This document shows positions 3,195 to 60,327 of a stretch of 64,000 nucleotides of DNA, piece by piece. This DNA comes from Leucobacter sp. OLIS6 (lineage in GTDB: Bacteria; Actinomycetota; Actinomycetes; Actinomycetales; Microbacteriaceae), in assembly GCF_002752355.1 (NCBI RefSeq), contig NZ_MRAV01000014.1:620001-684000 (forward strand). Direction: 5' to 3'. Both the position numbers and the translations under genes were made by a program. Every line of letters begins with the position of its first letter. Position 1 is the stretch's first letter. The notes below the pieces were generated by a model. The model was not told where the DNA came from and searched no databases. It saw only the letters and a list, made by a program, of their open reading frames with translations.

Positions 3195-5264
3195 TCAGGC
3201 GGCGACCGGTGCGGCCGCCGCGGTCTTTGCGGCGGCCCGGCGTGCGGCCGCGCCCTTCAGGATGATCACGAGGGCGGCCGTCACGAGGACGCCGGCGGCG
3301 AGCGCCGCGACGAACAGCAGCGGCTGGCCGATGAGCGGCAGCACCCAGATGCCGCCGTGCGGTGCGCGGAGCGTCGCGCCGAAGAGCATGACGAGGCCGC
3401 CGGTCACGGCGGACCCGATGGTCGAGGCGACGATGATGCGGATGGGGTCGGCCGCGGCGAAGGGAATCGCGCCCTCCGAGATGAAGGAGGCGCCGAGCAG
3501 CCAGGCGGCCTTGCCGTTCTCGCGCTCGGGCGCCGAGAACAGCCTGGGTCGCACGGCAGTGGCGAGCGCGAGCGCGAGCGGCGCGACCATGCCCGCGGCC
3601 ATGACCGCGGCCATGATCTTCAGCTGCGGCGCGTCCATCGCGGCGCCCGCGGCCGAGAGCCCCGCCGTCGCGAAGCCGTAGGCGACCTTGTTCACGGGGC
3701 CGCCGAGGTCGAAGCCCATCATCGCGCCGAGGATCAGTCCGAGCACGAGCACGCCCGCACCGGTGAGGCCGTTCAGCCCGTCGTTCATGGCGGTCATGAG
3801 TCCGACGATGGGGCGGCCGAGCACCGTGATGAAGAGGCCGGCGGTGAGGAGGGTCGACAGCAGCGGGATGACGACGACGGGCATGACGCCCCGCACGCCC
3901 TTGTGCACCTTCCAGCTCGAGATCCAGCGGGCGAGCGCGCCCGCGAGGAGGCCCGTGACGATGCCGCCGAGGAATCCGGCGTTCATGCTCGTGGCGATCG
4001 CACCGCCCACGATTCCGGGCACGAGACCGGGGCGGTCGGCGATCGCGAAGGCGATGTAGCCCGAGAGGATCGGGACGAGGAAGCCGAAGGAAGCCGAGCC
4101 GATCACGAAGCAGAGCGCGGCCCACGAGGTGAGGCTCGTCGCGTCGAAGTGCTGGGCGATGTTGAACTCGTCGGAGCTCGTCAGGCCGTACTTGACGATC
4201 TCGATCGCACCGCGCTCCCCCAGGGCGATCTGGGCGAGCATGAACGAGAGGGCGATGAGGATACCGCCGGCTGCCACGAACGGGATCATGTACGAGACGC
4301 CCGTCATGAGCCACTGACGCAGCCGGGTTCCCGCACCGACCTTCTGCTCGGCATCGGCGTCGAGAGCCGCGCCGGCGGCGGCCTCTCCCGCGCCCCGGGC
4401 GGCCTTCGCGGGATCCGCCTCCCACGCTGCCGCCAGCTCGGCTGCCTGCTCGAGCAGTCGGGGCCCGTCTGCGATCGCCTGCTTCACCCCGACGTCGACG
4501 GTGGGCTTGCCCGCGAACCGCGCGCGATCCTTCACCTCGACGTCGTGCGCGAACACGACCGCATCGGCCGCCGCGATCTGCGCTGCGGTGAGCGGGGTCG
4601 ACCCCGCGGAGCCCTGGGTCTCGACCGCGATCTCGTGTCCGGCCTCGCGCGCCGCGTTCTCGAGCGCCTCCGCCGCCATGTAGGTGTGGGCGATGCCCGT
4701 GGGGCACGAGGTGACCGCGACGAAGCGCAGGGGACGCTCGGCTGTGCGCTCCGCCGGAGCGGGATCCGCGACGGGTGCGGGATCCGCAGCGCCCTCGGCG
4801 GGGGCCGGAGCCGGATCGAGCCGCACGTGCTCGTCGACGATGGCCACGACCTCGGCCGGGGTCTCCGCTGCGAGCAGCGCCGCTCGGAAGTCCTCGCGCA
4901 TCAGGGCGCGGGCCAACTGCGGCAGCACCTGCATGTGCGCGTCGCCGCCATCGGCGGGAGCGGCGATGAGGAATACGAGCCGCGCCGGGCCGTCCTTCGC
5001 GCCCCAGTCGATCCCGTCCTCGCCGATCCGGCCGAACACGAGCGAGGGCTCGGTGATCGCCGCGCTACGCGCGTGCGGGATCCCGATGCCTCCCGGGAGC
5101 CCGGTCGCCATCTTCGACTCGCGCTCGCGCACGTCCGCGATGAAGACCTCGAGGTCCGTGCAGCGGCCGGTCGCCACGAGGCGTTCCGCGAGCGCACGGG
5201 TCGCCTCGTGCCGGTCGGCACCGGTGAGGTCGAGCACCACCTGCTCGTCACTGATGAGTGGCAT
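3195..5264 (-). CDS. fruA: Fructose-specific PTS enzyme IIABC
   Basis: Membrane transporter that imports fructose and phosphorylates it to fructose-1-phosphate. Domains in order: EIIA about residues 1-150 (phospho-His in GIPHARSAAI), a linker rich in Ala/Pro/Glu, EIIB about 175-275 (phospho-Cys in SCPTGIAHTYM), then the polytopic EIIC about 310-665 with repeated glycine-rich membrane helices. The 689-residue length is usual for actinobacterial fused FruA. AAGGA precedes ATG 5264, 45 bases after fruK. Its phosphate donors ptsH and ptsI follow directly. Confidence 0.95.
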   Translation of the reverse strand: MPLISDEQVVLDLTGADRHEATRALAERLVATGRCTDLEVFIADVRERESKMATGLPGGIGIPHARSAAITEPSLVFGRIGEDGIDWGAKDGPARLVFLIAAPADGGDAHMQVLPQLARALMREDFRAALLAAETPAEVVAIVDEHVRLDPAPAPAEGAADPAPVADPAPAERTAERPLRFVAVTSCPTGIAHTYMAAEALENAAREAGHEIAVETQGSAGSTPLTAAQIAAADAVVFAHDVEVKDRARFAGKPTVDVGVKQAIADGPRLLEQAAELAAAWEADPAKAARGAGEAAAGAALDADAEQKVGAGTRLRQWLMTGVSYMIPFVAAGGILIALSFMLAQIALGERGAIEIVKYGLTSSDEFNIAQHFDATSLTSWAALCFVIGSASFGFLVPILSGYIAFAIADRPGLVPGIVGGAIATSMNAGFLGGIVTGLLAGALARWISSWKVHKGVRGVMPVVVIPLLSTLLTAGLFITVLGRPIVGLMTAMNDGLNGLTGAGVLVLGLILGAMMGFDLGGPVNKVAYGFATAGLSAAGAAMDAPQLKIMAAVMAAGMVAPLALALATAVRPRLFSAPERENGKAAWLLGASFISEGAIPFAAADPIRIIVASTIGSAVTGGLVMLFGATLRAPHGGIWVLPLIGQPLLFVAALAAGVLVTAALVIILKGAAARRAAAKTAAAAPVAA

Positions 5265-5309
5265 GTCGATTCCTTTCGGGATTCGGTACGGGTCCGGCGC
5301 GTCGCCGGT

Positions 5310-6257
5310 TCAGTCGTTCAGGGGCAGCTCGCGCTGCAGGGTACGGCTGCGTTCGACCTCGAGGTCGAGCAGGTCCGCCGGGCCGGGGACCTCGGTCCCG
5401 GGGAGCCGCACGGCGGCAGCGCCCCAGCAGACCCCCATCGAGAGCGCATCGACCGGAGCTTCTCCGCGGTCGAGACCGAGCAGCAGCCCGGCGAGCATGC
5501 AGTCCCCCGCGCCGACGGTCGATACCGGGTCGGAGATGACCGTCCGCGCGTGCACGGCCTCCTCAGCGGTGATCAGCACCGCGCCGTCCCGCCCGAGGCT
5601 GACCGCCACGAACTCGATGCCCGAGGCGACGAGCTCCCGCCCGGTATCGACGACGGCGCCGAGCGTGTCGAGGGGCCGGCCCACGAGCTCCGCCAGCTCT
5701 TCGCGATTGGGTTTGATGAGCGTCGGCACCGCGGCGACCGCGGCGGCGAACGCCGACCCCGAGGAATCGATGGCGACCCGGGCCCCCCGCGCTCGTGCTT
5801 CGCGCACGATCGTGGCGTAGAAGGAGTCCGGCGCTCCCGGCGGCAGGCTGCCGCATCCGGCGATCCATGCACCCGCTTCGAGGTCCCGGAGCGCCGCCTC
5901 GAGCAGCGCGTCGACATCGGTCGGATCGAGCGCCGGGCCGGCCTCGTTGAGCTTCGTCGTGGTGCCGTCGGGTTCCAGCACGCTGACGTTCATACGCGTG
6001 CTCCCCGTGATCGGCACGATCCGGCTCGCCGCGCCGGTGCCGGCGAGGAGGACTTCAAAGAGCGCGCCCTCCGGTCCGCCGGACGGGACCACGATGAGGG
6101 CGTCGCCGCCCATCGCCGTCAGAGCCCGGCCCACGTTGACGCCCTTGCCGCCGGGATCCACCCGTGACGAATCGGCGCGCAGCACCTGGCCGCGGTCCAG
6201 GGTCTCGACCGTCACCGCCCGATCCACGCTCGGGTTCGGGGTCAGCGCGACGATCAT
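5310..6257 (-). CDS. fruK: 1-phosphofructokinase (PfkB family)
   Basis: Converts fructose-1-phosphate from FruA to fructose-1,6-bisphosphate with ATP. The 315 residues show the PfkB/ribokinase signatures: the N-terminal MIVALTPNPSVD, GGKGVNVGRAL for substrate binding, and the C-terminal TVGAGDCMLAG with the catalytic Asp. The ATG at 6257 overlaps the fruR stop (ATGA). Start choice is supported by the family N-terminus and the overlap. It lies directly upstream of fruA. Confidence 0.95.
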   Translation of the reverse strand: MIVALTPNPSVDRAVTVETLDRGQVLRADSSRVDPGGKGVNVGRALTAMGGDALIVVPSGGPEGALFEVLLAGTGAASRIVPITGSTRMNVSVLEPDGTTTKLNEAGPALDPTDVDALLEAALRDLEAGAWIAGCGSLPPGAPDSFYATIVREARARGARVAIDSSGSAFAAAVAAVPTLIKPNREELAELVGRPLDTLGAVVDTGRELVASGIEFVAVSLGRDGAVLITAEEAVHARTVISDPVSTVGAGDCMLAGLLLGLDRGEAPVDALSMGVCWGAAAVRLPGTEVPGPADLLDLEVERSRTLQRELPLND

Positions 6258-7015
6258 GCCGTCACCACCGTGGGGCCTGCGGCCCGGAGCTCCTCGGCGA
6301 GGTCGCCGTCGAGGTCGGTGTCGGTGATCACGAGGTCGATCTCGTCGAGCGCCGCGAAGCGGGTGAGGTGCGCGCGGCCCGCCTTGCTGGAGTCCGCGAC
6401 CAGCACGGTCGTGCGCGATGCCAGCACCATCGCACGCTTCACCGCGGCCTCCTCCTGGTCGGGAGTGGTGAGTCCGCGCTGCGCGTCGAAGCCGTTGGAT
6501 CCGACGAAGCCGACGTCGACGGTGAGTTCGGCGAGCGCCTCGCAGGTCCATCGTCCGACGGCTGCTCCGGTGACCGGGCGCACCCGTCCGCCGAGCTGCA
6601 TCAGTTCGATTCCGGGCTTCGCGGACAGCGCCGCGCCGATCATGAGGCTGTTGGTGATGACCGTGCACTCGGCGTCGGCCGGGAGCGCCTGCGCGATGGC
6701 GAGCGTGCTGGTGCCGGAGTCGAGCAGCACGGTGCCGCCCGCTGGAATCTCTTCGAGGGCGCGGAGCGCGATCCGCTGCTTGACCGCGGCGCGTCGGCCG
6801 ATCCGCACGTCGAGACCGACCTCGGGTTCGACCCGGTCGACGGGGATCGCACCGCCGTGCACGCGCTGCAGCAGTCCGCGACGTTCGAGGGCGGTGAGAT
6901 CCCGCCGGATCGTCTCGGTCGATACCTCGAGCTGCTCGGCGAGCGCACCCACTTCGGCGCGCCCGTCGGCGCGCGCCGAAGTCAGGATCAGCTGCTGGCG
7001 TTCTGCTGCGTACAC
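6254..7015 (-). CDS. fruR: DeoR-family regulator of the fructose operon
   Basis: Predicted repressor that senses a fructose phosphate. The N-terminal winged helix-turn-helix (about residues 1-55, with VSTETIRRDLTAL) is followed by the DeoR sugar-phosphate sensor domain (GTSTLAIAQAL, VADSSKAGR). I place the start at GTG 7015 (VYAAERQQ, matching the family's usual N-terminus), preceded by GGGAGGA seven bases upstream; an in-frame ATG at 7081 is less likely because it would add about 22 atypical residues and has no ribosome-binding site. First gene of the operon, so autoregulation is likely. Confidence 0.9.
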   Translation of the reverse strand: MYAAERQQLILTSARADGRAEVGALAEQLEVSTETIRRDLTALERRGLLQRVHGGAIPVDRVEPEVGLDVRIGRRAAVKQRIALRALEEIPAGGTVLLDSGTSTLAIAQALPADAECTVITNSLMIGAALSAKPGIELMQLGGRVRPVTGAAVGRWTCEALAELTVDVGFVGSNGFDAQRGLTTPDQEEAAVKRAMVLASRTTVLVADSSKAGRAHLTRFAALDEIDLVITDTDLDGDLAEELRAAGPTVVTA

Positions 7016-43620: not shown

Positions 43621-44418
43621 TCAGCTTCGCGCGGTGCCCGCCGCGATGTCGCGGACCACCTCGGAGAGCCGGTCGACTCCCCCGTCGCGCAGCGCGCGGA
43701 CGAAGGCGGTGCCGACGATCGCACCGTCGGCGTAGTCGAGTGCCGCGGCGACCTGCTCGGCTGTGGAGATGCCGATGCCGACGCAGGCGAGGTCGGCGCC
43801 CTGGGCCCGCAGGCGGGCCGTGAGCTCGCGCGCCGCTGCATCGAGCTGGGCGCGCTCGCCCGTGATGCCCATGGTCGACACGGTGTAGACGAAGCCGGTG
43901 GTCGAGCGGGTGACGAGCGCGAGGCGCTCGTCGGTCGAACTGGGGGCCGCGAGGAACACGCGGTCGAGACCGAGGCGCTCGCTGATCCCGATCCACTCGG
44001 CCGCGGAGTCCGGCGTGATGTCGGGCGTGATGAGCCCGGCGCCGCCCGCCGCGAGCAGGTCCTCCGCGAAGCGCTCCACGCCGTACTGCACCACCGGGTT
44101 CCAGTAGGTCATCACGAGGATCGGCACGTCGACCGCCTCGCGCACCCGGCGGATCGCCTCGAAGACGTGCGCCACCCGGAATCCGTCGGCCAGCGCGGTC
44201 TGCGTCGCCTCCTGGATGATCGCGCCGTCCATCACCGGATCGGAGTAGGGCAGGCCGAGTTCCAGCACGTCCGCGCCGCTGCGGGCCATCGCGATCGCCG
44301 CGGCGACGCTCGTGTCGAGGTCGGGGAAGCCGACGGGAAGGTATCCGACGAGCGCGCCCCTGCGCTCCTGCTTCGCGGCGCGGATCGCCCGAGCCACCTG
44401 GGATTCGTGGGCGCTCAT
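43621..44418 (-). CDS. trpA: Tryptophan synthase alpha subunit
   Basis: Cleaves indole-3-glycerol phosphate to indole, which passes to TrpB. In 265 residues: catalytic Glu in [10 protein letters not shown], Asp in DPVMDG, and the phosphate-binding [13 protein letters not shown] 44418 overlaps the trpB stop (ATGA). Confidence 0.97.
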
Positions 44419-45638
44419 CCGTCCATCTCCGCATCGTTCTCGCCGAGCAGGCCGAAGTACCGGCCCGCCGTCGCCATGTCCTTGTCGCCGCGGCCCGAGA
44501 GGTTCACGGCGATGAGCCCGTCGGGGCCCAGCTCCTTGCCGATGCGGATCGCGCCCGCGAGCGCGTGCGCCGACTCGATCGCCGGGATGATCCCCTCGGT
44601 GCGGCTCAGCAGGCGCAGGGCCTGCATCGCCTCGTCGTCCGTGGCCGGGATGTAGTCGGCGCGTCCGATGTCGGCGAGCCATGCGTGCTCGGGTCCGACG
44701 CCCGGGTAGTCGAGGCCCGCCGAGATCGAGTGCGACTCGATGGTCTGGCCGTCCTCGTCCTGCAGCACGTAGGTGCGGGAGCCGTGCAGGATCCCGGGGC
44801 GACCGCGCTCGATCGAGGCCGCGTGCTGGTCGGTGTCGACACCGGCACCGGCCGCCTCGACCCCGTACAGCTTGACGTCGGGATCGTCGATGAAGGCGTC
44901 GAACATACCGATCGCGTTCGATCCGCCGCCGACGCAGGCCACGACGGCATCGGGCAGCCGCCCGGCCTTCTCGAGCAGCTGCGCCCGGGCCTCCTCGGAG
45001 ATGATCTTCTGGAAGTCGCGGACCATCGCGGGGAACGGGTGCGGGCCGGCCGCGGTGCCGAAGATGTAGTTGGTGCGGTCGACGCTCGCGACCCAGTCGC
45101 GGTAGGCCTCGTTGATCGCGTCTTTCAGCGTGCGCGACCCCGCGGTCACGGGGATCACCTCGGCGCCGAGGAGGCGCATGCGCGCCACGTTCAGCGCCTG
45201 GCGCTCGGTGTCGACCTCGCCCATGTAGACGGTGCACTCGAGCCCGAAGAGTGCGGCGGCGGTCGCCGTGGCGACGCCGTGCTGGCCCGCGCCGGTCTCG
45301 GCGATCACGCGCTGCTTGCCGAGGCGCTTGGTGAGGAGCGCCTGGCCGAGCACGTTGTTGATCTTGTGCGAACCGGTGTGATTCAGGTCTTCGCGCTTCA
45401 GGAAGATGCGCGCTCCCCCGGCATGCGCCGCGAAGCGGGGCACCTCCGTGATGGGGGACGGTCGGCCGGCGTAGTCGCGCAGCAGATCCGTGAGCTCGGC
45501 CTGGAAGGCCGGGTCGGCCTTCGCCTCGTCGTAGGCGAGGGTGAGCTCGTCGATCGCGGCGATGAGCGACTCCGGCATGAACCGGCCGCCGAACTCGCCG
45601 AAGAACGGACCGCTCTGCTCGCGCAACGGATTCGACAT
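44415..45638 (-). CDS. trpB: Tryptophan synthase beta subunit, operon copy
   Basis: PLP enzyme joining indole and serine. The 407 residues start with [17 protein letters not shown]; the PLP lysine is in [14 protein letters not shown] and the phosphate-binding loop is [17 protein letters not shown] precedes ATG 45638. It is tightly coupled to trpA, so it is the partner of the alpha subunit. It differs clearly from the second TrpB at 59098 (for example [15 protein letters not shown] here versus [15 protein letters not shown] there). Confidence 0.97.
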
Positions 45639-46749: not shown

Positions 46750-47400
46750 TTACGCGCGCGGCGCCTCGGGATCGGCCGCCCCGGTCGCGGTGCTCTCCGC
46801 ATCTTCGTCGGCGTCCGGGTCGGCACCCGAAGGATCGTCGCCGTCGCTCAGCGCGTCCCAGTCGGCGATGCGGTCGGGCTCGTCGCTCTCGACCCGCTTC
46901 GTGCTCGTCTCGTACTTGCGACCGGCGGTGGCCCACCGGCCGCTGACCGCCAGCACGAGCACGCCGAGCAGCAAGACGAGCACGCCGAGCGCGGCGGTGA
47001 CGATCGGCCACACCGTGAGCGAGGTGCCGGCGATCGCGTCCTGCGCGGAGCCGCCGGCCAGGCCGGTGAGCTTGGTCACGCGCGCCAGCGAAGCCGCGGA
47101 CGGGTCGATCAGAACGGTGATCGCCACCGCCGAGATCCCCGCACCGAGCAGGGCGAGCACGACGCCGAGCACGCGTCGGAAGACCTTGCCCGCGATGGTC
47201 AGTGCCAGCGCACCCGCCAGGACGGCCAGCGCGAGCGGCGAGAGCGACTGGTTGAACTCCTGCCCGGTGACCGAGAGGTGGTCCTGTGCCGCCGCGCCCA
47301 GTTCGAGCTTGAACGAGGCCCACGGCTGGGTCGCCGAGAGCAGCGCGAGCGCACCGACGAGCCCCAGGCCGGCGATCAGGAGGAGCCGCATCCGCTTCAC
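46750..47400 (-). CDS. Trp biosynthesis-associated membrane protein
   Basis: Matches the actinobacterial family found between trpE and trpC (TIGR02234-like, Trp_oprn_chp). The 216 residues have four helices, an extracytoplasmic loop with ATQPWASF after helix 1, and an acidic tail. Function unknown. GTG 47400 overlaps the trpE stop (GTGA) and has GGAGG seven bases upstream, so it is preferred over ATG 47391. Confidence 0.85.
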   Translation of the reverse strand: MKRMRLLLIAGLGLVGALALLSATQPWASFKLELGAAAQDHLSVTGQEFNQSLSPLALAVLAGALALTIAGKVFRRVLGVVLALLGAGISAVAITVLIDPSAASLARVTKLTGLAGGSAQDAIAGTSLTVWPIVTAALGVLVLLLGVLVLAVSGRWATAGRKYETSTKRVESDEPDRIADWDALSDGDDPSGADPDADEDAESTATGAADPEAPRA

Positions 47401-48941
47401 GAGCGACCTCCGATCGAGCGCAGGGTGTTCGCCACGGCGACCGCCCGCAACGGCGCAGCCGCCTTGTTGCGGGACTCCTGATCCTCCATCTCGGGGACGG
47501 AGTCGGCGACGATCCCGCCGCCCGCCTGCACCATCGCGACGCCGTCGCGGATCGTGGCGGTGCGGATCGCGATCGCGAGGTCGGCGGAGCCCGAGAGGCC
47601 GAAGTAGCCGACCACTCCCCCGTAGACGCCGCGCTGCACGGGCTCCAGCTCGTCGATGATCTGCAGGGCGCGCGGCTTCGGGGCGCCGCTCAGGGTGCCC
47701 GCGGGGAACGTCGCGCGCAGCGCATCGATGGCGTTGCGCCCCTCGCCCAGCTCGCCCTCGACGGTCGAGACGATGTGCATGATGTGGCTGAAGCGCTCGA
47801 TCCGCATGAACTCGGTCACCTCGACGCTCGACGGGTCGCACACCCGCAGCAGGTCGTTCCGGGCGAGGTCGACGAGCATGAGGTGCTCGGCCCGCTCCTT
47901 CTCGTCGGCGAGCAGCTCGCGCTCGTGCTGATGGTCCTCGTCGATGGTCGCGCCGCGCGGGCGGGAGCCGGCGATCGGGTGCGTGATGACGTGGCCGTCG
48001 TTGTGCACGGTGACGAGGGCCTCCGGGCTGGATCCGACGACCGAGAACGGCTCGCCGTCCGCGTCCTCGACCGTGAGCAGGTAGAGGTAGGGGCTCGGGT
48101 TCAGGTGCCGCAGCACTCGGTAGACGTCGAGCGGATCCGCGGTGCATTCCTGGTCGAAGCGCTGCGAGAGCACCACCTGGAAGATGTCGCCGTCGACGAT
48201 GTAGCGCTTGGATCGTTCGACGCCGGCCAGGTATTCGGCCTCGTTCGTCAGCCGACGGGCCGTGGGCATCGCCGTGCGGTCGAGCTCGCCGAGCGGCGAC
48301 GCCGCCTGAGCCGCGAGGGTCTCCTGCAGCGCATCGAGGCGCCGCTGGCCCTCGGCCCACTGCGCATCGGCGTCGTCGGAGTGCTGATCGTTCAGCACGT
48401 TGACGACGAGGATCACGCTGCCCTCGCGGTGATCGATCACGACCACCTCGGATGCGAAGCTGAGCGACTGGCTCGGGATGCCGGGGCCCTCGGTCGGCCC
48501 GTGCTCGAGCCGCTCGAACTGCCGCACGGTCTCCCAGCCGAGGTAGCCCACGAAGCCGCTCACGAGGGGCGGCAGCTGGGCGACCTGCGGCGTGCGCCAG
48601 TGCTCGGCCGCGGCGCGCAGCGCCTCGACCGGGGCGAGGTGGGAGACCCCGCCCGGCAGCAGGCGCTCCTCGGGGATGCCGCCCTCGGACGGCACCCAGC
48701 GGGCCCGCCCGTCGCGCTCGCTGAGCGAGCCGAACGAACCCGCCCCAACGAAGCTGAACCGGGTCCAGACACCGCCCTGCTCTGCGGACTCCAGCAGGAA
48801 CGTACCGGGTCGCGAAGCCGCGACCTTGCGGTAGATGCCGACCGGGGTCTCCGCGTCCGCGAACACCTCGCGGCACACGGGAATGACGGTGTGGGTGGTG
48901 CGGGCGGCGTCGAAGGCCTCGCGCGTCGTCGTCAGGCTCAC
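47397..48941 (-). CDS. trpE: Anthranilate synthase component I
   Basis: Makes anthranilate from chorismate. The 514 residues carry the tryptophan feedback motif FLLESAEQGG...S near the N-terminus, and the catalytic motifs IAGSRPRG, LMLVDLARNDL and GAPKPRALQIIDELE. Start GTG 48941 lies six bases after TAAGCT (48948-48953), so trpE seems to begin a leaderless transcript just behind hisI. Component II (trpG) and trpD are not in the window. Confidence 0.96.
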   Translation of the reverse strand: MSLTTTREAFDAARTTHTVIPVCREVFADAETPVGIYRKVAASRPGTFLLESAEQGGVWTRFSFVGAGSFGSLSERDGRARWVPSEGGIPEERLLPGGVSHLAPVEALRAAAEHWRTPQVAQLPPLVSGFVGYLGWETVRQFERLEHGPTEGPGIPSQSLSFASEVVVIDHREGSVILVVNVLNDQHSDDADAQWAEGQRRLDALQETLAAQAASPLGELDRTAMPTARRLTNEAEYLAGVERSKRYIVDGDIFQVVLSQRFDQECTADPLDVYRVLRHLNPSPYLYLLTVEDADGEPFSVVGSSPEALVTVHNDGHVITHPIAGSRPRGATIDEDHQHERELLADEKERAEHLMLVDLARNDLLRVCDPSSVEVTEFMRIERFSHIMHIVSTVEGELGEGRNAIDALRATFPAGTLSGAPKPRALQIIDELEPVQRGVYGGVVGYFGLSGSADLAIAIRTATIRDGVAMVQAGGGIVADSVPEMEDQESRNKAAAPLRAVAVANTLRSIGGRS

Positions 48942-57941: not shown

Positions 57942-58861
57942 GCGAGCACCGCCGATCCTCCGCGGCCGCGCAACCAGGCGGCGCCGTCCATCGCGGCCTT
58001 GCCCGCCGGCTGCACGCGCACGAGTTCGAGGGATCCGTCGGCGAGGCGCAGGATCGCGCGCCCGTCGATCAGCTCGACGGCGCCGGCAGCGTCGGCTCCC
58101 GCGGCGGCGGCATCGGCGGCGCGGCGCACCTCGTGCAGCTTGAGGGGCTGGTCATCGTAGTGGGCGTAGGCGCCGGGTTCCGGGGTCATGCCGGCCCACT
58201 GGGCGAGGACCTCGCGGGTGGGGCGCGCGAGGTCGAGACGGCCGTCCTCCCGGCCGAGCTTGTGCGCGTAGCTCGCCTCGCCGGTCTGCGGCTCGCCGGT
58301 GAGCGTTCCATCGGCGAGGCCGGCGATCGCCGCGACGAGGGCGCCGGTGCCGAACTCTGCGAGGTCCGTGAGCGCGGCGCCCGCGGGGGTGCCCGCGGGG
58401 AACTCCCGCGCGTCGCGGGTCAGCACGTCACCGGCGTCGAGCGCCGCGACCAGGCGGAACACCGTCACGCCGAGGTTCTGCTCGCCCGCTTCGAGGGCGC
58501 GCTGCACCGGCGCCGCGCCGCGCCAGCGCGGCAGCTCCGAGAAATGCAGGTTGATCCATCCCTGGGCGGGCAGCGAGAGCAGCGGTTCGCGCACGAGTCC
58601 GCCGTAGGCGACGATCACGCCGAGATCCGCCTCGAGCGATGCAGCCCACTCGGTGGCCGCATCCCCCAGCCGATTGGCCTTCAGCACCGGCAGGCCGAGC
58701 TCCTCGGCGGCGAGCGCCACGGGCGAAGGGGTCAGCACGCGCTTGCGCCCGAGGGGCGCGTCCTCCCGGGTGATCACGCCGACGACCTCGTGGCCTGCGG
58801 AGACGACCGCTCGAAGACTGGGCACGGCGAACTCGGGAGTTCCGGCGAAGAGGATGCGCAT
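57938..58861 (-). CDS. fmt: Methionyl-tRNA formyltransferase
   Basis: Formylates initiator Met-tRNA. The 307 residues open RILFAGTPEFAVPSL; the active-site Asn/His segment reads NLHFSELPRWRGAAPVQ (commonly NLHxSLLPRWRGAAP) and the catalytic Asp is in LDAGDVL. ATG 58861 is preceded by only a weak site; GAGAAT six bases before could be a leaderless -10. Divergent from trpL. Confidence 0.95.
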   Translation of the reverse strand: MRILFAGTPEFAVPSLRAVVSAGHEVVGVITREDAPLGRKRVLTPSPVALAAEELGLPVLKANRLGDAATEWAASLEADLGVIVAYGGLVREPLLSLPAQGWINLHFSELPRWRGAAPVQRALEAGEQNLGVTVFRLVAALDAGDVLTRDAREFPAGTPAGAALTDLAEFGTGALVAAIAGLADGTLTGEPQTGEASYAHKLGREDGRLDLARPTREVLAQWAGMTPEPGAYAHYDDQPLKLHEVRRAADAAAAGADAAGAVELIDGRAILRLADGSLELVRVQPAGKAAMDGAAWLRGRGGSAVLA

Positions 58862-58926
58862 CACCCTATTCTCGCATCTCGGTGGACCGCGCACCCTCGC
58901 ACGGGCGCTCGCCCGAGCTCTCGAGC

Positions 58927-58956
58927 TTGCCCGACGGCCTCGGAGTGCTCTACGAT
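58927..58956 (+). promoter_or_regulatory. Promoter of trpL-trpB2
   Basis: TTGCCC (58927-58932), 18-base spacer, TACGAT (58951-58956). The start point falls at or next to the trpL ATG, so the leader peptide should be translated from a leaderless mRNA. Confidence 0.6.
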
Positions 58957-58962
58957 CGCCCC

Positions 58963-58995
58963 ATGCATATCGCGAATCAGTGGTGGACCGCCTAG
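58963..58995 (+). CDS. trpL: trp leader peptide
   Basis: Ten codons, MHIANQWWTA then TAG, with two adjacent tryptophan codons (TGGTGG at 58981-58986) followed directly by attenuator hairpins. It is a sensor: ribosome stalling at the Trp codons when charged tRNA-Trp is scarce shifts the downstream RNA fold. No other function is expected. It controls the lone trpB2 rather than trpE. Confidence 0.85.
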   Translation: MHIANQWWTA

Positions 58996-59058
58996 GCGGT
59001 CTCGATCTCGCGCATCTGCATGCACTTCCGACACCGTCTCTCGTAGGCGGTGTTTTTT
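58986..59058 (+). promoter_or_regulatory. Tryptophan transcription attenuator
   Basis: Region 1:2 hairpin GACCGCC/GGCGGTC (58986-59001) overlaps the Trp codons and leader stop. The terminator 3:4 stem ACACCG/CGGTGT (59031-59053) is followed by a T6 run to 59058. Region 2 (GGCGGT) resembles region 4 (GGCGGTGT), so it can compete for region 3 (ACACCG). That is the layout of classical attenuation. Confidence 0.8.
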
Positions 59059-59097
59059 CGTCTCTCGAGTGGCGCAATGACGCAAAGGACCTCTCCA

Positions 59098-60327
59098 ATG
59101 ACACACCCCACCACGACTTCCCCCGACGCCGCGCCCTCCCCGTACCGTGCCGACGGCGCCGGGTACTTCGGCGAGTTCGGCGGAGCGATCCTGCCCCCGT
59201 TCCTCGCGGGCCCCATGGCCGAGGTCGCCGAGGCCTACGAGGCCGCGCGGCAGGATCCCGAGTTCCAGCGGCAGTACCAGGACCTGCTGTCGAAGTACGT
59301 CGGTCGCCCCTCGCTGCTGTACTTCGCCGAGAACCTGACGCAGCGGCTCGGCGGCGCGAAGGTCTACCTGAAGCGCGAGGACCTCAACCACACGGGCGCG
59401 CACAAGATCAACCACACGCTCGGTGAAGCGCTGCTCGCGAAGCGGATGGGCAAGACCAAGGTCATCGCCGAGACCGGCGCGGGGCAGCACGGCGTCGCGC
59501 TCGCGACGGCGGCGGCGCTCGTCGGTCTCGAGTGCGAGATCCACATGGGAGCCATCGACGTGGCCAAGCAGCACCCCAACGTGGTCCGCATGGAGCTGCT
59601 CGGAGCGAAGGTCGTGCCCGTGGAGCGCGGTGGCCGCTCACTGAAGGAGGCCGTCGACTCGGCGTTCGAGGTCTACGCCGCGTCCCCCGACGAGTACCTC
59701 TTCGCTATCGGCTCCGTCGTCGGCCCCCACCCGTTCCCGTCGATGGTGCGCGATTTCCAGTCGGTCGTCGGCCGCGAGGCACGTGCCCAGATCCTGGAAG
59801 CCGAGGGGCGCCTGCCCGACGCGCTCGTCGCCTGCGTCGGCGGCGGATCGAACGCCATGGGCCTGTTCGACGCGTTCCTCACCGATGAGTCCGTGCGCGT
59901 GATCGGCGTCGAGCCCGCCGGTGAGGGCCTCGACACCGACCGGCACGCGGCGACCATGACGAAGGGCGTCGTCGGCGACCTGCACGGCATGCACACCAAG
60001 GTGCTGCTCGACGAGAACGGCGAGCCGGCTCCCGTGCACTCCATCGGATCGGGCATCGACTACCCCGGCGTCGGCCCGCAGCACGCCCACCTGGAGCAGA
60101 CCGGCCGCGGCGAGTACGTGAGCGTCACCGACGCCGAGGCGCTCGACGCGTTCCAGCTGCTGACCCGCGCTGAGGGGATCATCCCCGCGCTCGAGTCGTC
60201 GCACGCGCTGGCGCACGTCGTGAAGCTCGCCCCGGAGCTCGGTCCCGACGCGATCATCATCGCGAACCTCTCGGGCCGCGGCGACAAGGACGTGGACTTC
60301 GTCGCGGAACGGCTCGCTCAGGCGTGA
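59098..60327 (+). CDS. trpB2: Second tryptophan synthase beta subunit
   Basis: A 409-residue TrpB homologue with intact catalytic parts: PLP Lys in [20 protein letters not shown], and [14 protein letters not shown]. It is divergent from the operon TrpB (for example [15 protein letters not shown]) and has no trpA beside it. It may serve as a salvage enzyme that condenses indole with serine, or supply TrpB when Trp is limiting, as suggested by the trpL attenuator. AAGGA lies about eight bases before ATG 59098. The symbol reflects a second copy, not the archaeal TrpB2 subfamily. Confidence 0.92.

Follow-up and report, generated by a model that had tools for sequence, protein, structure and literature searches.

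A predicted tryptophan attenuator before a stand-alone trpB gene in Leucobacter

Our main conclusion is that a TrpA-independent TrpB, which would make tryptophan from free indole and serine, is under the control of a ribosome-mediated transcription attenuator; we put the probability of this reading at roughly 0.7. The gene is the second trpB of a 64,000-nucleotide stretch of the Leucobacter sp. OLIS6 genome, which we call the window. Judged by its anatomy and its conservation, the site before this gene is a classical Trp attenuator, and the novelty is the target, a solitary trpB, rather than the type of attenuator. Such an arrangement would offer a natural example of Trp control acting on the final step of tryptophan synthesis, with that step uncoupled from the making of indole.

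The mechanism we propose is as follows. RNA polymerase would start at or beside the leader ATG, as the spacing of the –10 element suggests. When charged Trp-tRNA is ample, the ribosome would clear both Trp codons and reach the stop codon, with strand 2 covered or paired with strand 1; the 3:4 hairpin would form and, to go by the anatomy, transcription would end at the T6 run. When charged Trp-tRNA is scarce, the ribosome would be expected to stall on TGGTGG over strand 1, leaving 2:3 to pair and trpB to be transcribed. The stand-alone TrpB would join free indole and serine into tryptophan without TrpA.

Leader and predicted attenuator before the second trpB

All of the parts lie on the forward strand, and the gene 5' of them is the divergent fmt. 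A predicted –10 element, TACGAT (58951–58956), ends 6 nt 5' of the ATG (58963) of a ten-codon leader ORF, MHIANQWWTA (58963–58995, stop TAG at 58993–58995), in which the tandem Trp codons TGGTGG, as read from the sequence, occupy 58981–58986. Three pairings follow: a 1:2 hairpin (58985–59002; 58985–58991 with 58996–59002), whose strand 1 reaches into the second Trp codon and whose changes are compensated over 20 leaders; a 2:3 antiterminator (58995–59038; 58995–59000 with 59033–59038, including one G-U pair and a small inner hairpin); and a 3:4 intrinsic terminator (59030–59058; 59030–59039 with 59045–59054, then T6 at 59053–59058). These are mutually exclusive, because strands 1 and 3 are both ACCGCC-like while strands 2 and 4 are both GGCGGT-like. 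The stand-alone trpB (59098–60327, ATG at 59098, stop ending at 60327) encodes 409 residues, none of them Trp; it is monocistronic, and the following gene lies on the opposite strand. The site has the sequence features of a Trp attenuator: a tandem-Trp leader ORF, exclusive pairings and a terminator with a U run before the gene. The leader, Trp codons, hairpins, T6 run and second trpB all lie where an earlier sequence-only reading of this DNA had placed them.

A search for a –35 element of the leader promoter gave no sigma-70 consensus match. The motif TAnnnT stands 6 or 7 nt 5' of the leader ATG in 35/35 leaders, against 51 of 3372 control ATGs (1.5%), and from this spacing and that of TACGAT we consider that the trpB leader mRNA is probably leaderless. 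TGn precedes TAnnnT in 31 of the 35 leaders, the window leader being one that does not have it.

The combination of an ATG, a short frame, TGGTGG, a stop and a terminator occurs once in the window, counting both strands, at the leader, and in none of 100 order-2 Markov resamples of the window. The 3:4 stem is the sole terminator-like site in 58500–59200, where shuffles lead us to expect 0.2, and the 2:3 antiterminator fold of 58994–59038 has an energy of –13.0 kcal/mol. Structure modelling of 58963–59100, the check that had been suggested from the sequence, gives an unexceptional energy (z = –1.11; 29/200 shuffles as stable or better); the shorter segment 58982–59060 gives z = –2.22, with 6/200 shuffles as stable or better. 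Folding energy by itself is a weak argument for an attenuator, and it is conservation that decides.

We therefore relied on R1, a covariance model of 20 Leucobacter leaders (alignment A4), from which the window was left out together with G212, G228, G237, G206, G247, G214, G220, G223, G232, G233, G211, G227, G215, G161 and G136. Applied to the window genome, R1 finds the leader site at E = 2.3e-19, the next match having E = 3.26. Over the 20 leaders, 98.3% of the cells in the 1:2 and 3:4 helices are paired, and five pairs have both sides changed, a number reached by 0/500 shuffles; the tally of further pair types is equalled by 53/500. The 2:3 core is 95% paired and shows no covariation (no double change), which, with the unexceptional folding of the whole leader, counts against the attenuator reading. 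Alignment A4 holds the 20 better-behaved leaders, realigned after a problem with the consensus from the 31-row leader alignment, A3: RNAalifold had returned a 1:4 pairing from A3, which we rejected as an artefact, given the likeness of strand 1 to strand 3 and the displacement of strand 2 by MAFFT in a few of the rows. For the leaders of G199, G225 and G221 our script saw no four-T run 3' of the stem.

Distribution of the leader

A second trpB is carried by 35 of the 54 Leucobacter genomes, and the leader is present at all 35 of these loci. The script recognised 33 of them; the others are that of G211 (MRTKIHMFGWWIA), recognised by eye and by an R1 match, and that of G201, which is complete but in which an insertion of ∼1.1 kb parts strand 1 from strands 2–4. 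The G201 insertion (L286, G201:C1:1469800-1473600) is a natural break of the attenuator and carries a transposase ORF, which we take to be IS481-like. The gene is intact in 34 of the genomes and frameshifted in G215 (L150, G215:C11:69085-70280), where the leader is nevertheless complete. The sequence-only reading had staked its proposal on the Trp codons of orthologous leaders, and these are conserved, TGGTGG being invariant across A3. At E ≤ 4e-6, R1 matches 34 of the 54 genomes, all of which carry the second trpB, and it does so at the trpB leader; the leader of G227, the 35th gene-bearing Leucobacter, has E = 0.012. The 19 genomes that lack the gene, some of them incomplete and all surveyed with strict filters, gave no strong R1 match, the best being 0.0068 in G240.

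Orthologs beyond Leucobacter were sought in samples, partly overlapping, of 199 family, 394 class and 396 order genomes. Fourteen were found, of which four have the leader (G161, G136, and G808 and G1101, the latter two from another family), nine do not (G088, G151, G373, G918, G1121, G935, G995, G1103 and G1097), and one, G974, starts too close to a contig end for a leader call. Overall the leader accompanies 39 of 49 actinobacterial orthologs, and the nine leader-free ones indicate that attenuation is not universal for the stand-alone TrpB. Two of these nine, G088 and G151 (L034, L035), are from small-genome Microbacteriaceae and contain one Trp each.

The main trp genes form a trpE-C-B-A cluster on the reverse strand. 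Its first gene, trpE (47397–48941), lies 37 nt after hisI and starts ∼10 kb from the trpB leader, both values agreeing with the sequence-only reading; the gap leaves no room for a trpB-type leader before trpE. No W-rich short ORF was found within 250 nt 5' of trpE in 25 other Leucobacter loci. Together with the single good R1 site in the window genome, this bears out the proposal that it is the stand-alone trpB, not trpE, that has a Trp attenuator before it. Starvation may regulate this TrpB alone, as the sequence-only reading also proposed, but repressors, Rho-dependent control or leaders of unrelated types could act on the main cluster as well.

Among the 199 family genomes, 22 have an R1 match at E ≤ 0.1. 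In five of these Microbacteriaceae genomes, all without the second trpB (G148, G085, G101, G126 and G179; loci L211, L212, L213, L215 and L216), a true leader precedes a gene with chorismate-binding and GATase domains; the leader peptides are MHVETTFQWWTA, MHGETRLQWWTA, MRIATAQGWWPAS and, twice, MRSTFLTWWPA. The domains, Chorismate_bind and GATase, were assigned by Pfam in the one protein tested, and two tested proteins scored below the NCBIfam anthranilate synthase cut-offs. Leaders in Microbacteriaceae are thus found either before a solitary trpB or before this other gene. Weak R1 matches in other genera (L217–L225) had no WW leader and were dropped. Before non-actinobacterial stand-alone trpBs no WW leader was seen in 17 of 18 clade rows scanned. 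In L096 (Bacteroidota, Ancylomarina) a short ORF, MTQNNFWWNFSIINIEKG, lies 192 nt before the stand-alone trpB and is a possible Trp leader of another type. Rfam searches of 22 non-actinobacterial stand-alone trpB loci gave one T-box. It belongs to a Clostridia MAG (L072), where it spans 4751–4994, just before a Trp-free stand-alone TrpB at 5151–6311; its specifier loop has UGG after GAA, and no trpA match was found in the MAG. This is likewise a Trp-free solitary TrpB under a sensor of charged tRNA, though the RNA is of another class and the TrpB of another group.

The stand-alone TrpB

The second TrpB scores 565.6 bits against the TrpB1 model TIGR00263 (cut-off 392.45) and 161.9 bits against the TrpB2 model TIGR01415 trpB_rel, below its cut-off of 518.85. 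A tree of 108 TrpBs places it inside a clade of 33, none of which has trpA downstream within 1.8 kb or the remaining contig, four of the contigs ending within 0.8 kb of the gene. A careful tree of 68 TrpBs recovers the same clade with support of 100/99.8, its members coming from Actinomycetes, Pseudomonadota, Campylobacterota, Bacteroidota, Spirochaetota, Lentisphaerota and others. Whole-genome searches for 23 loci of this clade and the stand-alone Bacillota group gave another TrpB directly beside trpA in 12 cases, trpA elsewhere in 5 and no trpA match in 6; many of the genomes are MAGs.

Residues are given here in what we take to be Salmonella numbering, and N171 and R175 are presumably contacts to TrpA. 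The catalytic residues K87, E109 and S377 are kept in 53/53 clade rows, as is K167. In the same 53 rows W177 is always Y or F and N171 always D, and R175 is lost in 52. Among 110 TrpBs beside trpA, W177 and R175 are kept in all 110 and N171 in 103. The comparison left out L047, L060, L061, L069, L083, L113, L115 and other rows outside the named groups, as well as the near-duplicate or broken copies G212, G206, G214 and G215. The stand-alone TrpB does not carry the signature of a TrpA-dependent enzyme (N171, R175 and W177 in the COMM helix). Since catalytic residues are kept and residues near-invariant in trpA-linked TrpBs are lost, the enzyme, judged on its sequence, most likely works on free indole and serine without TrpA. 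The sequence-only reading had suggested a role in the use of free indole; we infer such use from this loss of TrpA-contact and COMM-region residues. No tryptophanase above the NCBIfam cut-off was found in 54 Leucobacter genomes, so that an intracellular source of indole is not evident; the indole would be external or leaked from TrpA. The residue list that separates TrpA-independent from TrpA-linked TrpBs should be useful for engineering stand-alone TrpB.

The operon TrpB of the window (44415–45638, reverse strand, 407 residues) has two Trp residues, as does the aligned part of operon TrpB in 24/24 Leucobacter operons, whereas the stand-alone TrpB has none. Trp-free proteins account for 48 of 53 clade rows, 6/6 Bacillota stand-alone rows and 0/110 TrpBs beside trpA, counts that partly reflect W177 itself, so that selection for a lack of Trp and the loss of the TrpA interface are not separable here. 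Intact actinobacterial orthologs are Trp-free in 38/38 cases with a leader and in 3/9 without, mostly in one genus and representing few independent events; a Fisher p of 1.5e-4, uncorrected for phylogeny, belongs to a preliminary table of 38/38 against 5/10. The broken genes of G215 and G373 have one Trp each. Synthesis of an enzyme without Trp would not be limited by its own product amino acid. The contrast between the paralogs, of which one, predicted to respond to starvation, is Trp-free and the other, which has no such leader, is not, offers a comparison within one cell for biosynthetic enzymes that shed their own product amino acid, a subject of PMC4209129 (in excerpt).

More tentatively, and with a likelihood that we place a little short of even, these observations could describe a TrpB1-type subfamily, spread across phyla, that shed its TrpA contacts and nearly all of its Trp and so became a starvation-proof route of indole salvage. 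Separate lineages would have coupled it to charged tRNA-Trp sensors of different kinds, Leucobacter and its relatives using a leaderless attenuator and the Clostridia group a Trp T-box, and the attenuator would be a movable module, set in Microbacteriaceae on TrpB or on an anthranilate-synthase-like gene.

Two other roles for the enzyme have to be weighed. The sequence-only reading had allowed that the second TrpB might replace the operon TrpB; under starvation it would then take that protein's place beside TrpA in the alpha-beta complex. The two proteins are 56% identical, and the catalytic residues and K167 are kept throughout the clade. This reading is not supported, and we consider it unlikely: the loss of W177, N171 and, in all but one row, R175, near-invariant beside trpA, opposes an ordinary alpha-beta complex, none of the 33 clade rows of the first tree has trpA downstream within the limits given above, and the operon trpB is kept in 24/24 fetched Leucobacter operons. 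Slightly less probable still is that the product is not tryptophan, the enzyme joining another indole or nucleophile, and that a Trp attenuator is kept since the enzyme draws on Trp precursors. The positions of A279 and M280, which in the stand-alone clade differ from those of trpA-linked TrpBs, and the scatter of the clade over phyla would fit such a change; against it, the related Trp-free TrpB of the Clostridia MAG lies behind a T-box with a UGG specifier and without a trpA match, and the TrpB1 markers K162 and D300 (Pyrococcus numbering; PMC1854888, in excerpt) are kept in 53/53 clade rows.

The remaining alternatives concern the leader. At gathering scores Rfam finds nothing at the site, and its match to RcsR1 (RF02552), which we take to be the same RNA as rnTrpL, is below threshold (29 bits, where the gathering score is 60; E = 2.8e-4). 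This match would fit a terminated leader RNA, or its peptide, that acts in trans, cis control of trpB being only part of its role. Such an RNA would also account for the absence of a leader before trpE, and the layout is that of Sinorhizobium, with a leaderless trpL and an attenuator-derived RNA, rnTrpL, reported to act in trans on trpDC mRNA (PMC7298713, in excerpt). We nevertheless think this improbable, about as much so as replacement of the operon TrpB, because strands 1–4 are conserved beside trpB at every leader-bearing locus and no strong R1 copy is seen where the second trpB is absent. A leader that arose by chance or survives as a functionless relic would agree with the unremarkable folding energy; the empty resamples, the conserved leader and the compensated pairs make this very improbable indeed, and on conservation we regard it as refuted.

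Relation to known systems

The reading we favour, cis attenuation of a TrpA-independent TrpB, has partial counterparts elsewhere, and in the open-licence literature we found neither a solitary trpB under attenuation nor a Trp-free subfamily of TrpB described. As in Sinorhizobium meliloti trpL-trpE(G), there is a leaderless leader ORF with tandem Trp codons and a terminator; unlike in the window, the attenuator there controls trpE(G) (PMC7298713, in excerpt). Like TrpB2_o (Merkl 2007, PMC1854888, in excerpt), the window copy is a second TrpB outside the trp operon, but it is TrpB1-type. Among solved chains the nearest to it is that of LBCA-TrpB (5ey5), a reconstructed ancestor. That protein is reported to be highly active without TrpA, and it and the Pelodictyon luteolum TrpB are examples of a TrpB1 working without TrpA (PMC11917138, in excerpt), as we propose for the window copy. 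The LBCA-Res6 residues (E36, E42, T53, S187, A279 and M280), considered as a possible signature, were rejected: the window copy has E36 and S187 only, and, unlike in LBCA-TrpB, the set is absent across the stand-alone clade, S187 alone being fixed.

Corynebacterium and Streptomyces are known to have attenuators before trp operons, and in C. diphtheriae candidates were described before trpB1EDGC and trpB2A (Seliverstov et al. 2005, PMC1262725, in excerpt). As described there, C. diphtheriae resembles Leucobacter in being an actinobacterium with two trpB copies and a candidate classical Trp attenuator with tandem TGG directly before trpB. Each of its trpBs, however, is the first gene of a longer trp operon, with an attenuator before both operons, whereas in Leucobacter one monocistronic trpB has the predicted attenuator and trpE-C-B-A has none. 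The trpB pairs of a genus that is presumably Corynebacterium fall in a clade of their own (100/100) and are not orthologous to the window trpB; they keep W177 in 9/9 rows and have N171D in 4/9. Leaders with a run of W precede trpB in three of the six regions fetched from this presumed Corynebacterium (L271, L273 and L274, with FWWWP, NWWWP and QWWWLA).
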